Origin: Nitrospiraceae bacterium
GTDB lineage: Bacteria; Nitrospirota; Nitrospiria; Nitrospirales; Nitrospiraceae
DNA: 49,015 nucleotides
Reading direction: 5' to 3'
NCBI GenBank assembly: GCA_023248355.1
Contig: JAHFES010000006.1
Location: 1 to 49,015 of the forward strand
A program made the position numbers and the translations under genes. Shown piece after piece: positions 24,271-28,149 of this stretch (positions are counted from its first letter, which is position 1; every line of letters starts with the position of its first letter). The notes below the pieces were generated by a model, which was not told the origin of the DNA, did no database searches, and saw only the letters and a program-made list of their open reading frames with translations.

Positions 24271-24909
24271 CTATTTATCGGTCGCTCGGCGAATGACTAA
24301 AGACATGCCGTCAACGAGCGACCATGCCAAGGATTGCGCATGCTCGGCTGACAAGGTGACTTGAAGATACGGATGTCGTTGACTGGCCTGGTCTGTGAAG
24401 AAAGAGTTTCCCCAGTTCTGCAATCGCCGCCACCACGTTTTCCCGGAGGACAAGCTCCATTGGAGCGGACTTTCCCCTGCTGTCGGTAGGATTTCGAGTG
24501 TGAGTGGTGGGGTACACGACAGCGTGTACTGAATTGGCATGTCGGCTAGGGAAATCGGTTCTTGGTCGACCGTTGCAGTGGGGTCAATTTTGCGGCGTAC
24601 GACGGCCGGGCGGGAGTGCAAGCGAAAGGTTCCCGCCATTGATTGACTGGAAGTTGCAGACCAGCCTCCGATGGGTATTCGATGGAGTTCTATTCCGCGG
24701 CCTTTGATTTGTACGGTTTGAGTCACGAGATCGATCAGGACATAGGTCTGGGGTCGAGCCGCCAGTTTCAGTTCTTCTTCGAGGACGCGAGAGGCCTCTT
24801 GAAGTGAAGCCGCATCATTGACGTTGACATCGGGGAAGACCTCAACGTCCGCCGCCCAGCTTGGGGTGGCGAAGGAAAGCAAGAGGAGGACAAATGCGCA
24901 GAGGTTCAT
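24271..24909 (-). CDS. Secreted L,D-transpeptidase-like protein lacking the catalytic motif
   Basis: This is a 212-aa protein with a clear signal peptide (residues 1 to about 20, ending PSWA). The N-terminal part (TYVLIDLVTQTVQIKGRGIE) mirrors the first strands of the neighbouring YkuD enzyme (PYILVDTARNHLYVKRQQE), and the C-terminal part (SLAWSLVDGMSLVI) mirrors its last strand. However, the His...(S/T)-x-G-C active-site block is absent. It may be a pseudoenzyme or a helper for the two enzymes upstream. The start was set at ATG 24907-24909, giving a clean signal peptide; an upstream ATG at 24931-24933 is possible. It lies 28 bp after the previous gene. The YkuD relation is my inference from short matches. 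Confidence 0.6.
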   Translation of the reverse strand: MNLCAFVLLLLSFATPSWAADVEVFPDVNVNDAASLQEASRVLEEELKLAARPQTYVLIDLVTQTVQIKGRGIELHRIPIGGWSATSSQSMAGTFRLHSRPAVVRRKIDPTATVDQEPISLADMPIQYTLSCTPPLTLEILPTAGESPLQWSLSSGKTWWRRLQNWGNSFFTDQASQRHPYLQVTLSAEHAQSLAWSLVDGMSLVIRRATDK

Positions 24910-24937
24910 GGATGGTTTCTGCGCCGGCAGCACACGA

Positions 24938-25573
24938 TTAGAAAATCATGATCGGTGTCCCAACTCGTGCGAGCTGGTACACACTTTTGAGGTCGCCATC
25001 ATTCAGTCGGATACAGCCATGGGTGACGTTTTTCCCCAAAAGGCGCGTATACAATGTTCCGTGAATGAAATAGCCTTTTCCAAATCCCAGCGCATACTCC
25101 CCGAGGACACCCTGCTCGACGCGATCGGCGGGATTCTTGGGAACCATCAAGCCTTCTTCGATGAAGGCCCAATCGGGCTTGACCCACACGGGGTTGGTGA
25201 GTTTCGACTGCACGGAAAATTCTCCCCGGGGTGTATCGAACACCCATTGGTCATTGCCATCTCCAGGTTTGTCGAGAATGGTTCCGCTCCCCGTTGAGGC
25301 GATGGCGTCGAGGACGACTTCCTGTTGCCGCTTGACGTACAGATGATTTCGAGCCGTGTCCACCAAGATATAGGGCTGATGGGGTATGAGTTGGGACAGT
25401 TGTTTGGAAAGCATCTTGTACCGTGCTTGGAGGCTGCGAATGCTCGCTTCGTCAAGGGCGGGAGACTGGGACGATTCAGGGCTGGAGGATATCACCTGGC
25501 TGCTGTGTGGCACGGTCGCCACGAGCAGTCCTACTATGATCACTGCTGAGAGAGAGAGAAGCACCCGTGCCAT
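24938..25573 (-). CDS. L,D-transpeptidase (YkuD domain), ErfK/YbiS-like
   Basis: This 211-aa protein has an N-terminal membrane/signal segment, a short helical region, and a YkuD catalytic domain ending with FIHGTLYTRLLG...THGCIRL. The conserved His, Ser/Thr-His-Gly-Cys and Arg of active L,D-transpeptidases are all present. It would form 3-3 cross-links in peptidoglycan or attach proteins to diaminopimelate. The ATG at 25571-25573 (MARVLLSL) is preferred over upstream GTG codons. It is 13 bp from the preceding transpeptidase-fold gene and in the same cluster as a lipoprotein with a lysine C-terminus. Confidence 0.9.
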   Translation of the reverse strand: MARVLLSLSAVIIVGLLVATVPHSSQVISSSPESSQSPALDEASIRSLQARYKMLSKQLSQLIPHQPYILVDTARNHLYVKRQQEVVLDAIASTGSGTILDKPGDGNDQWVFDTPRGEFSVQSKLTNPVWVKPDWAFIEEGLMVPKNPADRVEQGVLGEYALGFGKGYFIHGTLYTRLLGKNVTHGCIRLNDGDLKSVYQLARVGTPIMIF

Positions 25574-25586
25574 AGTCACCACCCGC

Positions 25587-26723
25587 TCACGTTTCTTCTT
25601 CTCGGTTCCCTAACTGGGCCAAGGCAAGCGCAACTGAGTTTTGTCCGGTCAAGGCTCCCACGATCGTGACGGGTGTTCCCGGCGTGACCCGCTCAAAGAG
25701 GGTGGCCATGTGTGGATTGTCGAGCATGATACAGCCGAGGGTCTGCGCCATGAGCTCGTTCTCAACCCCATGGATTTCGATTTGGCCCCCAATACTATTG
25801 ACCGATGCGATCCTGCCGGATTTCTTGGCGAGTGTGAATCGCCGCTGATCCTCTGCATTGGGATAATCCAACGCCAGGGCGCGATAGTATTGAGTTTTCC
25901 CCTGGCCGCGTTTAGCCGTCACACGATACCGGCCTTCCGGTGTGGCCCCATCGCCCTGGAACTGTTTTTCACGGATGCCGTTAAAGCCTAACCGGACGGG
26001 ATATGATAGCACCTTGCGTCCGTTCTTGTAGAGAGTCAACATCCGCTCGGCCTTGCTGACGACGATCGCGGCTGACTGGTGGGCGCGCGACCAGTCGACT
26101 GTCTGCTTGGCCATGGTTTGCCAATGGGCAATCCGTTTGTCGTCGGCATAGCGTCCCAGTTCGCGAGTCAGCACGGTGGTCAGAGCCAGGAGAGCATGAT
26201 TCGCCTTTTCTGAGGCCTGAATGGATCGCTCGTAGTCTTTCTGTTCGATGAATGAGCGAGCCTGCTTAATGAGCAGGTCGGTTTGGACTGGTGTTTCTCC
26301 CAGCACAATGCGTCCGTCAATCGACTCCACCTGTGAGGCGATCACCTGGAGACGTGCTTCGAGGCGAGCGAGCTTGGCTTCCGCCGTATGGCGTTGTGAG
26401 ACTTGCCGGTCATTCAACCGGGCGACGGTACTCCCGCCCTCATCGTGCAACCGTCTGAGGGCGTCTTCGAGATCGTTCGTCTCCCATGGCCACCGGATGA
26501 GATCATCGTCTGACTGCACGCGGGTCTTGAGCGAGATCCATTGCCGAACAAAGTGGCCATACTCCTCCGGTGCCGCTTCTGGAGCCCGCATTGCGATCAG
26601 GTCATGATCGATGGCATCAATCGCAGCGACGAGGTCCGGCGGAACGGCCTGGACGCATCCGGCCAGAATCATGGCACAGATGCTCCAGGTGACGATCGCT
26701 CTGGTCATTCGGCCCAAGGTCAT
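25587..26723 (-). CDS. YafK/DpaA-like L,D-transpeptidase-fold lipoprotein
   Basis: This 378-aa protein begins with a lipobox (ILAGC, Cys23). A helical region of about 200 residues follows, then a YkuD domain with GDGATPEGRYRV, LDYPNAED and a catalytic block IEIHG...QTLGCIML. The Cys and first His are present, but Leu replaces the usual second His of S/T-H-G-C. These features resemble E. coli YafK/DpaA, which detaches Braun lipoprotein from peptidoglycan, more than ErfK-type cross-linking enzymes. Activity is inferred. AGGGG is 6 nt before the ATG. It lies 14 bp after the helical lipoprotein gene. Confidence 0.85.
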   Translation of the reverse strand: MTLGRMTRAIVTWSICAMILAGCVQAVPPDLVAAIDAIDHDLIAMRAPEAAPEEYGHFVRQWISLKTRVQSDDDLIRWPWETNDLEDALRRLHDEGGSTVARLNDRQVSQRHTAEAKLARLEARLQVIASQVESIDGRIVLGETPVQTDLLIKQARSFIEQKDYERSIQASEKANHALLALTTVLTRELGRYADDKRIAHWQTMAKQTVDWSRAHQSAAIVVSKAERMLTLYKNGRKVLSYPVRLGFNGIREKQFQGDGATPEGRYRVTAKRGQGKTQYYRALALDYPNAEDQRRFTLAKKSGRIASVNSIGGQIEIHGVENELMAQTLGCIMLDNPHMATLFERVTPGTPVTIVGALTGQNSVALALAQLGNREEET

Positions 26724-26737
26724 CTGAAACCCCTACC

Positions 26738-27355
26738 CTACTTCTTCTTTGATGGAGAAGGCTTTCCTTTTCCCACCTTCGCTAAGGCATTCTGAATTTC
26801 TGCTGACACGGCCTGGCTCTTGTCATGAATGGCTTGGGCTTGGGCCTGTGCCGTTGGAAAGTCTTCTTTGTCGAGTGCGATCTGAACCTGGTTCAGTGAA
26901 GACTTGAGGGCTTCTGCATCGTTTTTGATGGCTTCGAGTGCCGCACGATCTTTCCCAACTGGCGCTTTGGCGACCAGGTCTAGCGTCGATTTCACTGCAT
27001 CTTGCGCGACCTGTTGGGCCTGGAGGGCTGCAACCTTGGTTTCTTCTTTCTTCTTAGTCGCTTCGGTCTTTACGCGTTCGCCGTCAGCTTTGGCGGAGGC
27101 TGCAAGCTGTTCGGCCTTTCCGTAGTCACGAAGGAGTGCAAACTTCCCATCCTGGTCCCCGACTTCTTTCTTTAGGGCGGCGAGGGCGCCCTCAAGCTTT
27201 GCATACTCCTGAGCGGTGTAGGTGGCGGCGCCACTCTGCTGTGCTTCCTTGACTGCTTTCTCCGCTGCCTCGATTTGCTCTGCCGGGGGCTTTGCGCATC
27301 CGGTCACCAACAGGACGGCAAGAGCAAGAGGTGCTAGGGTTTGTCTGGTCTTCAT
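26738..27355 (-). CDS. Helical lipoprotein with lysine C-terminus (DUF4398-like)
   Basis: This 205-aa protein has a signal peptide with lipobox VTGC (Cys20). It is followed almost entirely by Ala/Lys/Glu/Gln-rich amphipathic helix (about 25-195), suggestive of a coiled coil or helical hairpin and similar to DUF4398 lipoproteins. It ends in Ser-Pro-Ser-Lys-Lys-Lys. A lipid-anchored helix with a C-terminal lysine is the plan of Braun lipoprotein, although this protein is longer. It is 14 bp upstream of the YafK-like gene, and a strong AAGGAGGA precedes the ATG. A covalent link to peptidoglycan through the terminal Lys is my inference from the layout. Confidence 0.8.
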   Translation of the reverse strand: MKTRQTLAPLALAVLLVTGCAKPPAEQIEAAEKAVKEAQQSGAATYTAQEYAKLEGALAALKKEVGDQDGKFALLRDYGKAEQLAASAKADGERVKTEATKKKEETKVAALQAQQVAQDAVKSTLDLVAKAPVGKDRAALEAIKNDAEALKSSLNQVQIALDKEDFPTAQAQAQAIHDKSQAVSAEIQNALAKVGKGKPSPSKKK

Positions 27356-27543: not shown

Positions 27544-27780
27544 TTATCCGTTCTTCTTGTCCTTCTTTTTTCCCTTCCCGCCTTTCTTGCCCTTCTTGCC
27601 CTTCTTCTCCTTTTCTCCGTCCATCTTTTTCTCTGCTTCAGCGGGGGCTGGGGCAGATGCTGCTGGAGCGGCAGGAGCTGGTGGGGCTACTGGGGCTGCT
27701 TCTTGGGCGCGAACAAAGGTCCCAGCGGAGAAAGTAGTAATCACCGTGAGAGCCAACACGCTCAGAAAGAATTTCGCCAT
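27544..27780 (-). CDS. Small secreted Ala/Pro- and Lys-rich protein (78 aa)
   Basis: This 78-aa product has a signal peptide (to about AGTFVRA), then an Ala/Pro-rich linker, then a C-terminal tail of almost only Lys, Gly, Glu and Asp. The tail is strongly cationic. AAGGGGGTG precedes the ATG at 27778-27780, which I prefer over the GTG at 27792 lying inside that ribosome-binding site. No family is recognised. A role binding acidic envelope polymers is conceivable but not shown. It is upstream of the lipoprotein/L,D-transpeptidase cluster on the same strand, separated by a hairpin and 188 bp. Confidence 0.68.
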   Translation of the reverse strand: MAKFFLSVLALTVITTFSAGTFVRAQEAAPVAPPAPAAPAASAPAPAEAEKKMDGEKEKKGKKGKKGGKGKKKDKKNG

Positions 27781-28091
27781 AATGTTTTTCACCCCCTTCC
27801 TGTAAGAAATTTATGAATAGTGATCGTTGGGTTACCGATGCTCATGCAGTCGTGGTCATCGGCATGTGGCAATCTTCTATATCCTGGCAAGCTCAGTGCC
27901 AGATACCTGACTTTTAAAGCCAATAAGAATGTGCAACAATTCAAATGCTTGCGCTAGTATTTTTGATGAGTCTGTCAAGATGTTCTGTGGCGGTCTGGCA
28001 TTGAGAGGGCAAAAGCGCCTCAATCGACCGGGGTTAGGCTGGGAAGGTGCGATTTGATTCACAATGACCTGGGTTGTGAGGAAAGAGCAAA

Positions 28092-28120
28092 ATTGACAGG
28101 CCCGAAAGCCGCTCATATAA
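28092..28120 (+). promoter_or_regulatory. Consensus sigma-70 promoter of rpmH
   Basis: TTGACA (28092-28097) and TATAAT (28115-28120) are both perfect and exactly 17 bp apart. The start would be near 28127, about 45 bp before the rpmH ATG. The rest of the 390-bp gap after the Lys-rich gene (27781-28171) shows no gene and no recognisable DnaA box. Confidence 0.85.
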
Positions 28121-28149
28121 TGCGTCCTTCGTTTTGAAGGAACGCATTA
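28116..28149 (+). repeat. Inverted repeat overlapping the rpmH promoter
   Basis: ATAATGCGT-CCTTC (28116-28129) is complementary to GAAGG-A-ACGCATTAT (28135-28149), with one bulged base and a 5-nt loop. Its left arm covers the -10 box and the predicted start, so most of it cannot fold in the RNA. It is more likely a protein-binding site or chance. Confidence 0.5.

Follow-up and report, generated by a model that had tools for sequence, protein, structure and literature searches.

A conserved operon of Nitrospirota encoding a lysine-tailed helical lipoprotein and YkuD-fold proteins, a candidate reversible tether between outer membrane and cell wall

Here, we describe a four-gene operon in a 49,015-nucleotide stretch of DNA from a Nitrospiraceae bacterium (contig JAHFES010000006.1 of assembly GCA_023248355.1; hereafter the window), which is one contig of a 2.49 Mb draft genome, 83% complete. 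The operon brings together a helical lipoprotein with a Lys-rich tail (LIP), a lipoprotein with a DpaA-like YkuD domain (LD1), a canonical L,D-transpeptidase by sequence (LD2) and a predicted pseudoenzyme (P4), and its LIP-LD1-LD2 cluster is a conserved unit that reaches at least three phyla. That these genes encode a reversible tether between the outer membrane and peptidoglycan, with the attaching and the detaching enzyme encoded together, is in our judgement about an even call. An initial annotation of this DNA had proposed a self-contained, Braun-like tether. We find this interpretation partly supported, correct in its outline and mistaken in its details: YkuD enzymes of the attacher and the detacher type do lie beside a candidate lipoprotein substrate, but LIP is not Lpp and its terminal Lys varies.

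Results

LIP, LD1, LD2 and P4 follow one another in that order on the minus strand, separated by 14, 4 and 4 base pairs (bp), and form a tight operon:

26738-27355, minus strand: LIP, 205 amino acids, mature form of 186 amino acids from Cys20; lipobox LVTGC; candidate tether and acceptor
25587-26723, minus strand: LD1, 378 amino acids; lipobox ILAGC; YkuD match at E 4.8e-22; candidate detaching amidase
24938-25582, minus strand: LD2, 214 amino acids; YkuD match at E 9.7e-22; motif THGCIR; candidate attaching enzyme
24271-24933, minus strand: P4, predicted secreted, degenerate YkuD paralogue of LD2, putative pseudoenzyme; possible LD2 partner

All four open reading frames of the initial annotation were recovered in place, with lipoboxes on LIP and LD1, and LD1 begins 14 bp past LIP, as reported. 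The 13 bp given between LD1 and LD2 holds if an ATG start is taken for LD2, whereas from its GTG start the gap is 4 bp. Profile comparisons indicate that the operon holds two duplicated pairs, namely LIP with the N-terminal domain of LD1, and LD2 with P4.

Is this arrangement common beyond the window? Of 147 Nitrospiraceae genomes, 132 contain LD1 and 102 contain LIP. LIP, a Cys-bearing LD1 and LD2 are adjacent in 85 of the 124 Nitrospirota loci read, and P4, which is conserved in Nitrospirota, is detectable in 82 of these 85 complete loci. Eleven further Nitrospirota loci outside the family carry the operon. Among the acidobacterial loci sampled, LIP-LD1-LD2 is complete in 23 of 25; one of the other two lacks LIP, the locus being cut by a contig end, and one lacks LD2. 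A third phylum, that of locus L044, has LIP, LD1 and LD2 in all five full-length loci. The recurrence of this gene order in three phyla therefore excludes chance, and its preservation over such distances is strong evidence for one function. The numbers of gene copies also vary: one genome carries two LIP-LD1 pairs within ~10 kb (locus L135 of G294), with LD2 and P4 beside one pair only, and diverged second LIP paralogues (33-43% identity) lie elsewhere in several genomes (G071:C32:5302-5874, G009:C1:8490-9056, G050:C202:22167-22751 and others).

The AlphaFold2 model of LIP (mean predicted local distance difference test score, pLDDT, 89) contains helices at residues 6-21, 29-50, 60-111, 118-143 and 147-176, the longest of which comprises 52 residues or ~78 Å by arithmetic on the model at 1.5 Å per residue, and the tail falls below a pLDDT of 50. 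LIP is thus predicted to be an elongated bundle of helices that ends in a disordered, Lys-rich tail, which agrees with its earlier description as nearly all helix but replaces the extended coiled coil by a multi-helix bundle. A proposed likeness to DUF4398 (PF14346), a family whose own function is not known, survives as a weak similarity below the Pfam gathering score (20.4 bits against 27.9, covering LIP residues 26-110); the family matches only weakly in 6 of 10 LIP members (best E 3.3e-4). We rejected LIP as an Lpp homologue, since a Pfam search gave no match of LIP to PF04728 and its score against NF040598 was 15.5 bits at a cut-off of 43. Fold comparison did not assign a function either: the best Foldseek match, the N-terminal domain of Borrelia BB0323 (E 0.45), is within chance for helical bundles, as are the VIA matches (EzrA fragment, Z 11).

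LD1 consists of an N-terminal domain (approximately residues 23-190) and a YkuD domain (218-356) with H318 and C331. Profile-profile comparison aligned the LIP profile to the LD1 N-terminal domain across 168 columns, at 99.1% and E 4e-19, against 0.18 and 0.27 for reversed and 0.2-0.9 for column-shuffled controls. The N-terminal half of LD1, by this comparison, is an end-to-end duplicate of LIP, a relation missed by the initial annotation, and LD1 is therefore a LIP stalk on which an enzyme replaces the tail. In the AlphaFold2 model of LD1 (pLDDT 80), likewise, a helical domain whose long helix spans residues 84-134 precedes a YkuD fold that resembles Bacillus subtilis YkuD, Bd1075, Csd6 and Pgp2 at Z ~14-15, and DpaA by Foldseek.

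Which reaction might LD1 catalyse? An Arg two residues after the catalytic Cys distinguishes transpeptidases from DpaA and carboxypeptidases (PMC8263019, PMC10653827). None of the 122 Cys-bearing LD1 sequences has Arg at this position, which is occupied by M, A, S, Q or G instead. K253 of LD1, kept in 122 of 122, aligns with a loop Lys that is Lys83 in DpaA and Lys107 in Csd6 (PMC10653827). LD1 thus shares with Csd6, Pgp2 and Bd1075 the YkuD fold, the missing Arg and the loop Lys, and these carboxypeptidases are among its closest solved structures by both sequence and fold; carboxypeptidases may, moreover, figure among DpaA homologues (PMC8263019). LD1 could accordingly be imagined as an L,D-carboxypeptidase; by shortening tetrapeptides to tripeptides it would restrict the donors available to LD2, and the module would tune cross-linking or cell shape with LIP as a structural partner. 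We consider this quite unlikely. Of 122 LD1 sequences, 120 have Glu316 where the D-Ala pocket of the carboxypeptidases has Trp (Trp158 in Csd6) and DpaA has Met133, so that LD1 lacks the Trp of the aromatic pocket that Tyr133 and Trp158 form in Csd6; LD1 differs from these enzymes also in its LIP-like lipoprotein stalk. Among solved structures the LD1 profile scores best with DpaA (8ikr, E 1.3e-10), DpaA/YafK is the best NCBIfam model for LD1 (3.7e-8), and the DpaA model is the sole one to match all ten aligned LD1 members (best E 3.4e-9). Hence the earlier naming of LD1 as a YafK/DpaA-like YkuD lipoprotein stands, by YkuD domain, lipobox and those DpaA diagnostics that are testable, and most plausibly LD1 acts like DpaA without being a member of the DpaA equivalog.

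The active-site motif of LD2, T/S-H-G-C-I/V-R, is present in 116 of 116 sequences. Together with LdtE/ErfK-type NCBIfam matches and an N-terminal hydrophobic segment (signal or anchor), this identifies LD2 by sequence as a canonical L,D-transpeptidase, as the initial annotation had it. Many near-complete genomes encode no YkuD protein besides LD1 and LD2; the genome of the window contains a third, partial YkuD match (G000:C135:20079-20216, 23.8 bits).

P4 was without match in a Pfam search. Its family profile aligned to that of LD2 nearly end to end (153 columns, 92%, E 6.7e-7), compared with 0.55 for a reversed control and 0.12 for LD1. Profiles built from 9-10 close sequences only had reached 20%; broad alignments resolved the relation. 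Neither an HGC motif nor a conserved Cys occurs among the near-invariant positions of P4, and the active-site His and Cys are gone. The previously noted related protein without an active site is thus, as far as profiles tell, a dead copy of LD2 that arose by duplication, an origin which had been missed.

LIP of the window ends in GKPSPSKKK. Among the 121 LIPs with an intact LD2 the last residue is Lys in 80, and after clustering at 75% in 34 of 51 clusters; R (7), A (4), H (2) and G, N, Q and C (one each) make up the others. Lys lies within the last three residues in 43 clusters, within the last five in 50 and within the last ten in all 51, and a basic, Lys-rich tail is found in nearly all lineages. 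As background we used 400 kb of a related complete genome, in which 18 of 335 genes (5%) and 0 of 16 lipoprotein-like proteins end in Lys. The Lys tail is not due to chance, and a terminal Lys is favoured but not required. The Lys-tailed lipoprotein of the initial annotation is therefore confirmed for the window and for the enrichment, and not for invariance of the last residue; a strict terminal-Lys anchor as a general rule had to be rejected. A lack of conservation of this Lys across orthologues had been put forward as one refutation, and the outcome does not decide: Coxiella LimB (Lys21) and Legionella Lpg1810 are linked to peptidoglycan via non-terminal lysines (PMC8263019, PMC12729407, PMC11841132), and a variable LIP terminus therefore does not exclude a covalent linkage. 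Conversely, a terminal Lys by itself proves little, as more than 20% of Escherichia coli periplasmic proteins end in Lys (PMC12274547). An invariant internal acceptor was also considered and dropped; the best candidate, mature K174, is kept in 107 of 121 sequences, no better than other body lysines.

Does the operon decay in a preferred order? The catalytic Cys of LD1 is kept in 85 of 85 loci having LD2, and 35 of 35 loci with a Cys-less LD1 are without LD2 (Cys to Ser in 28, Cys to Gly in 2, whole YkuD domain gone in 5). Whole-genome searches did not find LD2 in the genomes of the decayed loci, and LIP is also gone from most LD2-less loci. Stages of the decay coexist within one genus: an LD2 pseudogene beside an intact LD1 (L140), a LIP fragment with LD1 intact (L137, L138), a reduced LIP together with Cys to Ser (L139), and a bare LD1 stalk (L088-L092). 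Loss thus appears, from these sequences, to begin with LIP and LD2 and to reach the LD1 enzyme last, the order that would follow if LD1 acts on the product that LD2 makes from LIP; the one-sided dependence of the LD1 Cys on LD2 likewise suggests that the chemistry of LD1 serves LD2's product.

What remains of LD1 after the loss differs between lineages. In L062-L069 and L175-L194 (genera g14 and g18) the YkuD domain is complete, but Ser or Gly stands in place of the catalytic Cys (P-Y/F-G-S/G); of the first 10 Cys-less copies inspected, 8 also have Gln in place of Glu316. That a Cys-less YkuD domain is kept points to an LD1 function that is altered or no longer catalytic. In L088-L092 the YkuD domain, LD2 and LIP are all lost, and the helical stalk alone remains as a free lipoprotein. 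As the stalk outlives the enzyme, the N-terminal domain of LD1 would therefore have a separate role.

Discussion

We propose that LIP is anchored by its lipid in the outer membrane, with the helical stalk pointing to the wall. LD2, on the inner-membrane side, would use a tetrapeptide stem as the acyl donor, coupling the stem diaminopimelate to the side-chain amino group of a Lys in the LIP tail, often, though not always, the last residue. LD1, on the same type of stalk, would bear a DpaA-type YkuD amidase in place of the tail, reach the same wall level and thereby be able to free LIP. P4 is probably a partner or regulator of LD2.

Several observations weigh against this tether. On a tree of the LD1 N-terminal domain, the losses reduce to ~4 independent losses of LD2 and 2 of LIP, for which a sign test was not significant, so that the one-sided decay is a pattern and not statistical proof; furthermore, one genome, G017 (locus L083), has LIP beside an intact LD1 but lacks LD2. 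The match of LD1 to the DpaA equivalog NF040599 is partial and scores 32.8 bits at a cut-off of 365. As LD2 is often the sole canonical YkuD transpeptidase of its genome, it may mainly, or also, make 3-3 cross-links. Finally, 17 of 51 LIP clusters end in a residue other than Lys, and the ratio of K to R is 5.9 in the LIP tail versus 6.3 in the body, which a merely basic tail fits as well; selection specific for Lys in the tail was not seen.

These properties of the tail and of LD2 also favour a non-covalent role, in which LIP never becomes attached. The cationic tail of the LIP stalk would bind either the wall or the enzymes, and would position or activate LD2 and LD1 to form and undo 3-3 cross-links, like LpoA and LpoB for penicillin-binding proteins. 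K and R interchange, so that charge is kept better than Lys identity, and homology such as that between LIP and the LD1 N-terminal domain is often found among interacting scaffolds. However, Lys frequency peaks at ~0.65 at the last two positions and is ~0.2 at position -4, more than a generic basic tail would need, and DpaA cleaves neither 3-3 cross-links nor D-Ala stems (PMC8263019), which leaves no obvious substrate for a DpaA-like LD1. We regard the non-covalent role as unlikely, though deserving real weight.

Could the tethered protein be another one altogether? Brucella, Agrobacterium, Coxiella and Legionella use L,D-transpeptidases to attach unrelated beta-barrels (PMC11841132, PMC12729407), and all species checked among these bacteria have DpaA-like proteins; LIP might then only dock the enzymes at the outer membrane while, e.g., a beta-barrel is linked via its N-terminus. 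LIP is, however, consistently linked to the enzymes and exposes a Lys-rich tail, and the operon has no consistently present gene for a beta-barrel, which makes this possibility very improbable.

How does the proposed tether compare with known ones? As in the E. coli system of Lpp, LdtA/B/C and DpaA, a helical lipoprotein of outer-membrane type with a Lys-rich C-terminus is accompanied by a canonical YkuD transpeptidase and a DpaA-type YkuD protein without the transpeptidase Arg. LIP is, in contrast to Lpp, an unrelated, larger, multi-helix bundle with a varying terminal Lys. The E. coli genes for Lpp, the transpeptidases and DpaA are unlinked, whereas all genes stand together here, along with the putatively dead YkuD paralogue. 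While E. coli DpaA is soluble (PMC12729407), LD1 is itself a predicted lipoprotein on a LIP-derived stalk. With Coxiella LimB and Legionella Lpg1810, LIP would share an outer-membrane location, an acceptor Lys that need not be the last residue and DpaA-like proteins in the genome (PMC8263019); it is unrelated to both, and their attaching enzyme is not known (PMC11841132, PMC12729407).

Braun's lipoprotein is restricted to part of the Gammaproteobacteria, and DpaA-like enzymes are found in many Lpp-less bacteria including Acidobacteria, where their substrate is a stated open question (PMC8263019). Our search of 60 Nitrospiraceae genomes found no Lpp family member, with E. coli as a working positive control, and literature searches on DUF4398 and on envelope tethers of Nitrospira and acidobacteria returned no prior description. 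With somewhat less than even confidence, we put forward a hitherto undescribed class of tether, covalent and reversible, between outer membrane and wall in phyla other than Proteobacteria (Nitrospirota, Acidobacteriota and the third phylum). Substrate, attacher, detacher and pseudoenzyme partner would share one operon enlarged by duplication, the detacher being a DpaA-type domain grafted onto a copy of the tether stalk and the pseudoenzyme a dead copy of the attacher. If true, this would account for a possible Lpp-free connection of outer membrane and wall in nitrite-oxidising Nitrospira and in acidobacteria. That a DpaA-like enzyme is linked to a single transpeptidase and a single candidate substrate, and this in at least three phyla, makes the DpaA substrate question testable with three proteins.

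Other features near the operon

Directly upstream of LIP lies an open reading frame of 82 amino acids (27544-27792, minus strand), secreted-looking and with a tail of Lys/Gly repeats. We dropped it as a fifth part of the operon because it is present in few other loci, with weak similarity only (L030/L036, L104/L112, L074). Further upstream, a sigma-70-type promoter match of 12 out of 12 positions (TTGACA-17-TATAAT; 28093-28121, plus strand) faces the rnpA-like, yidD and yidC genes of the plus strand.

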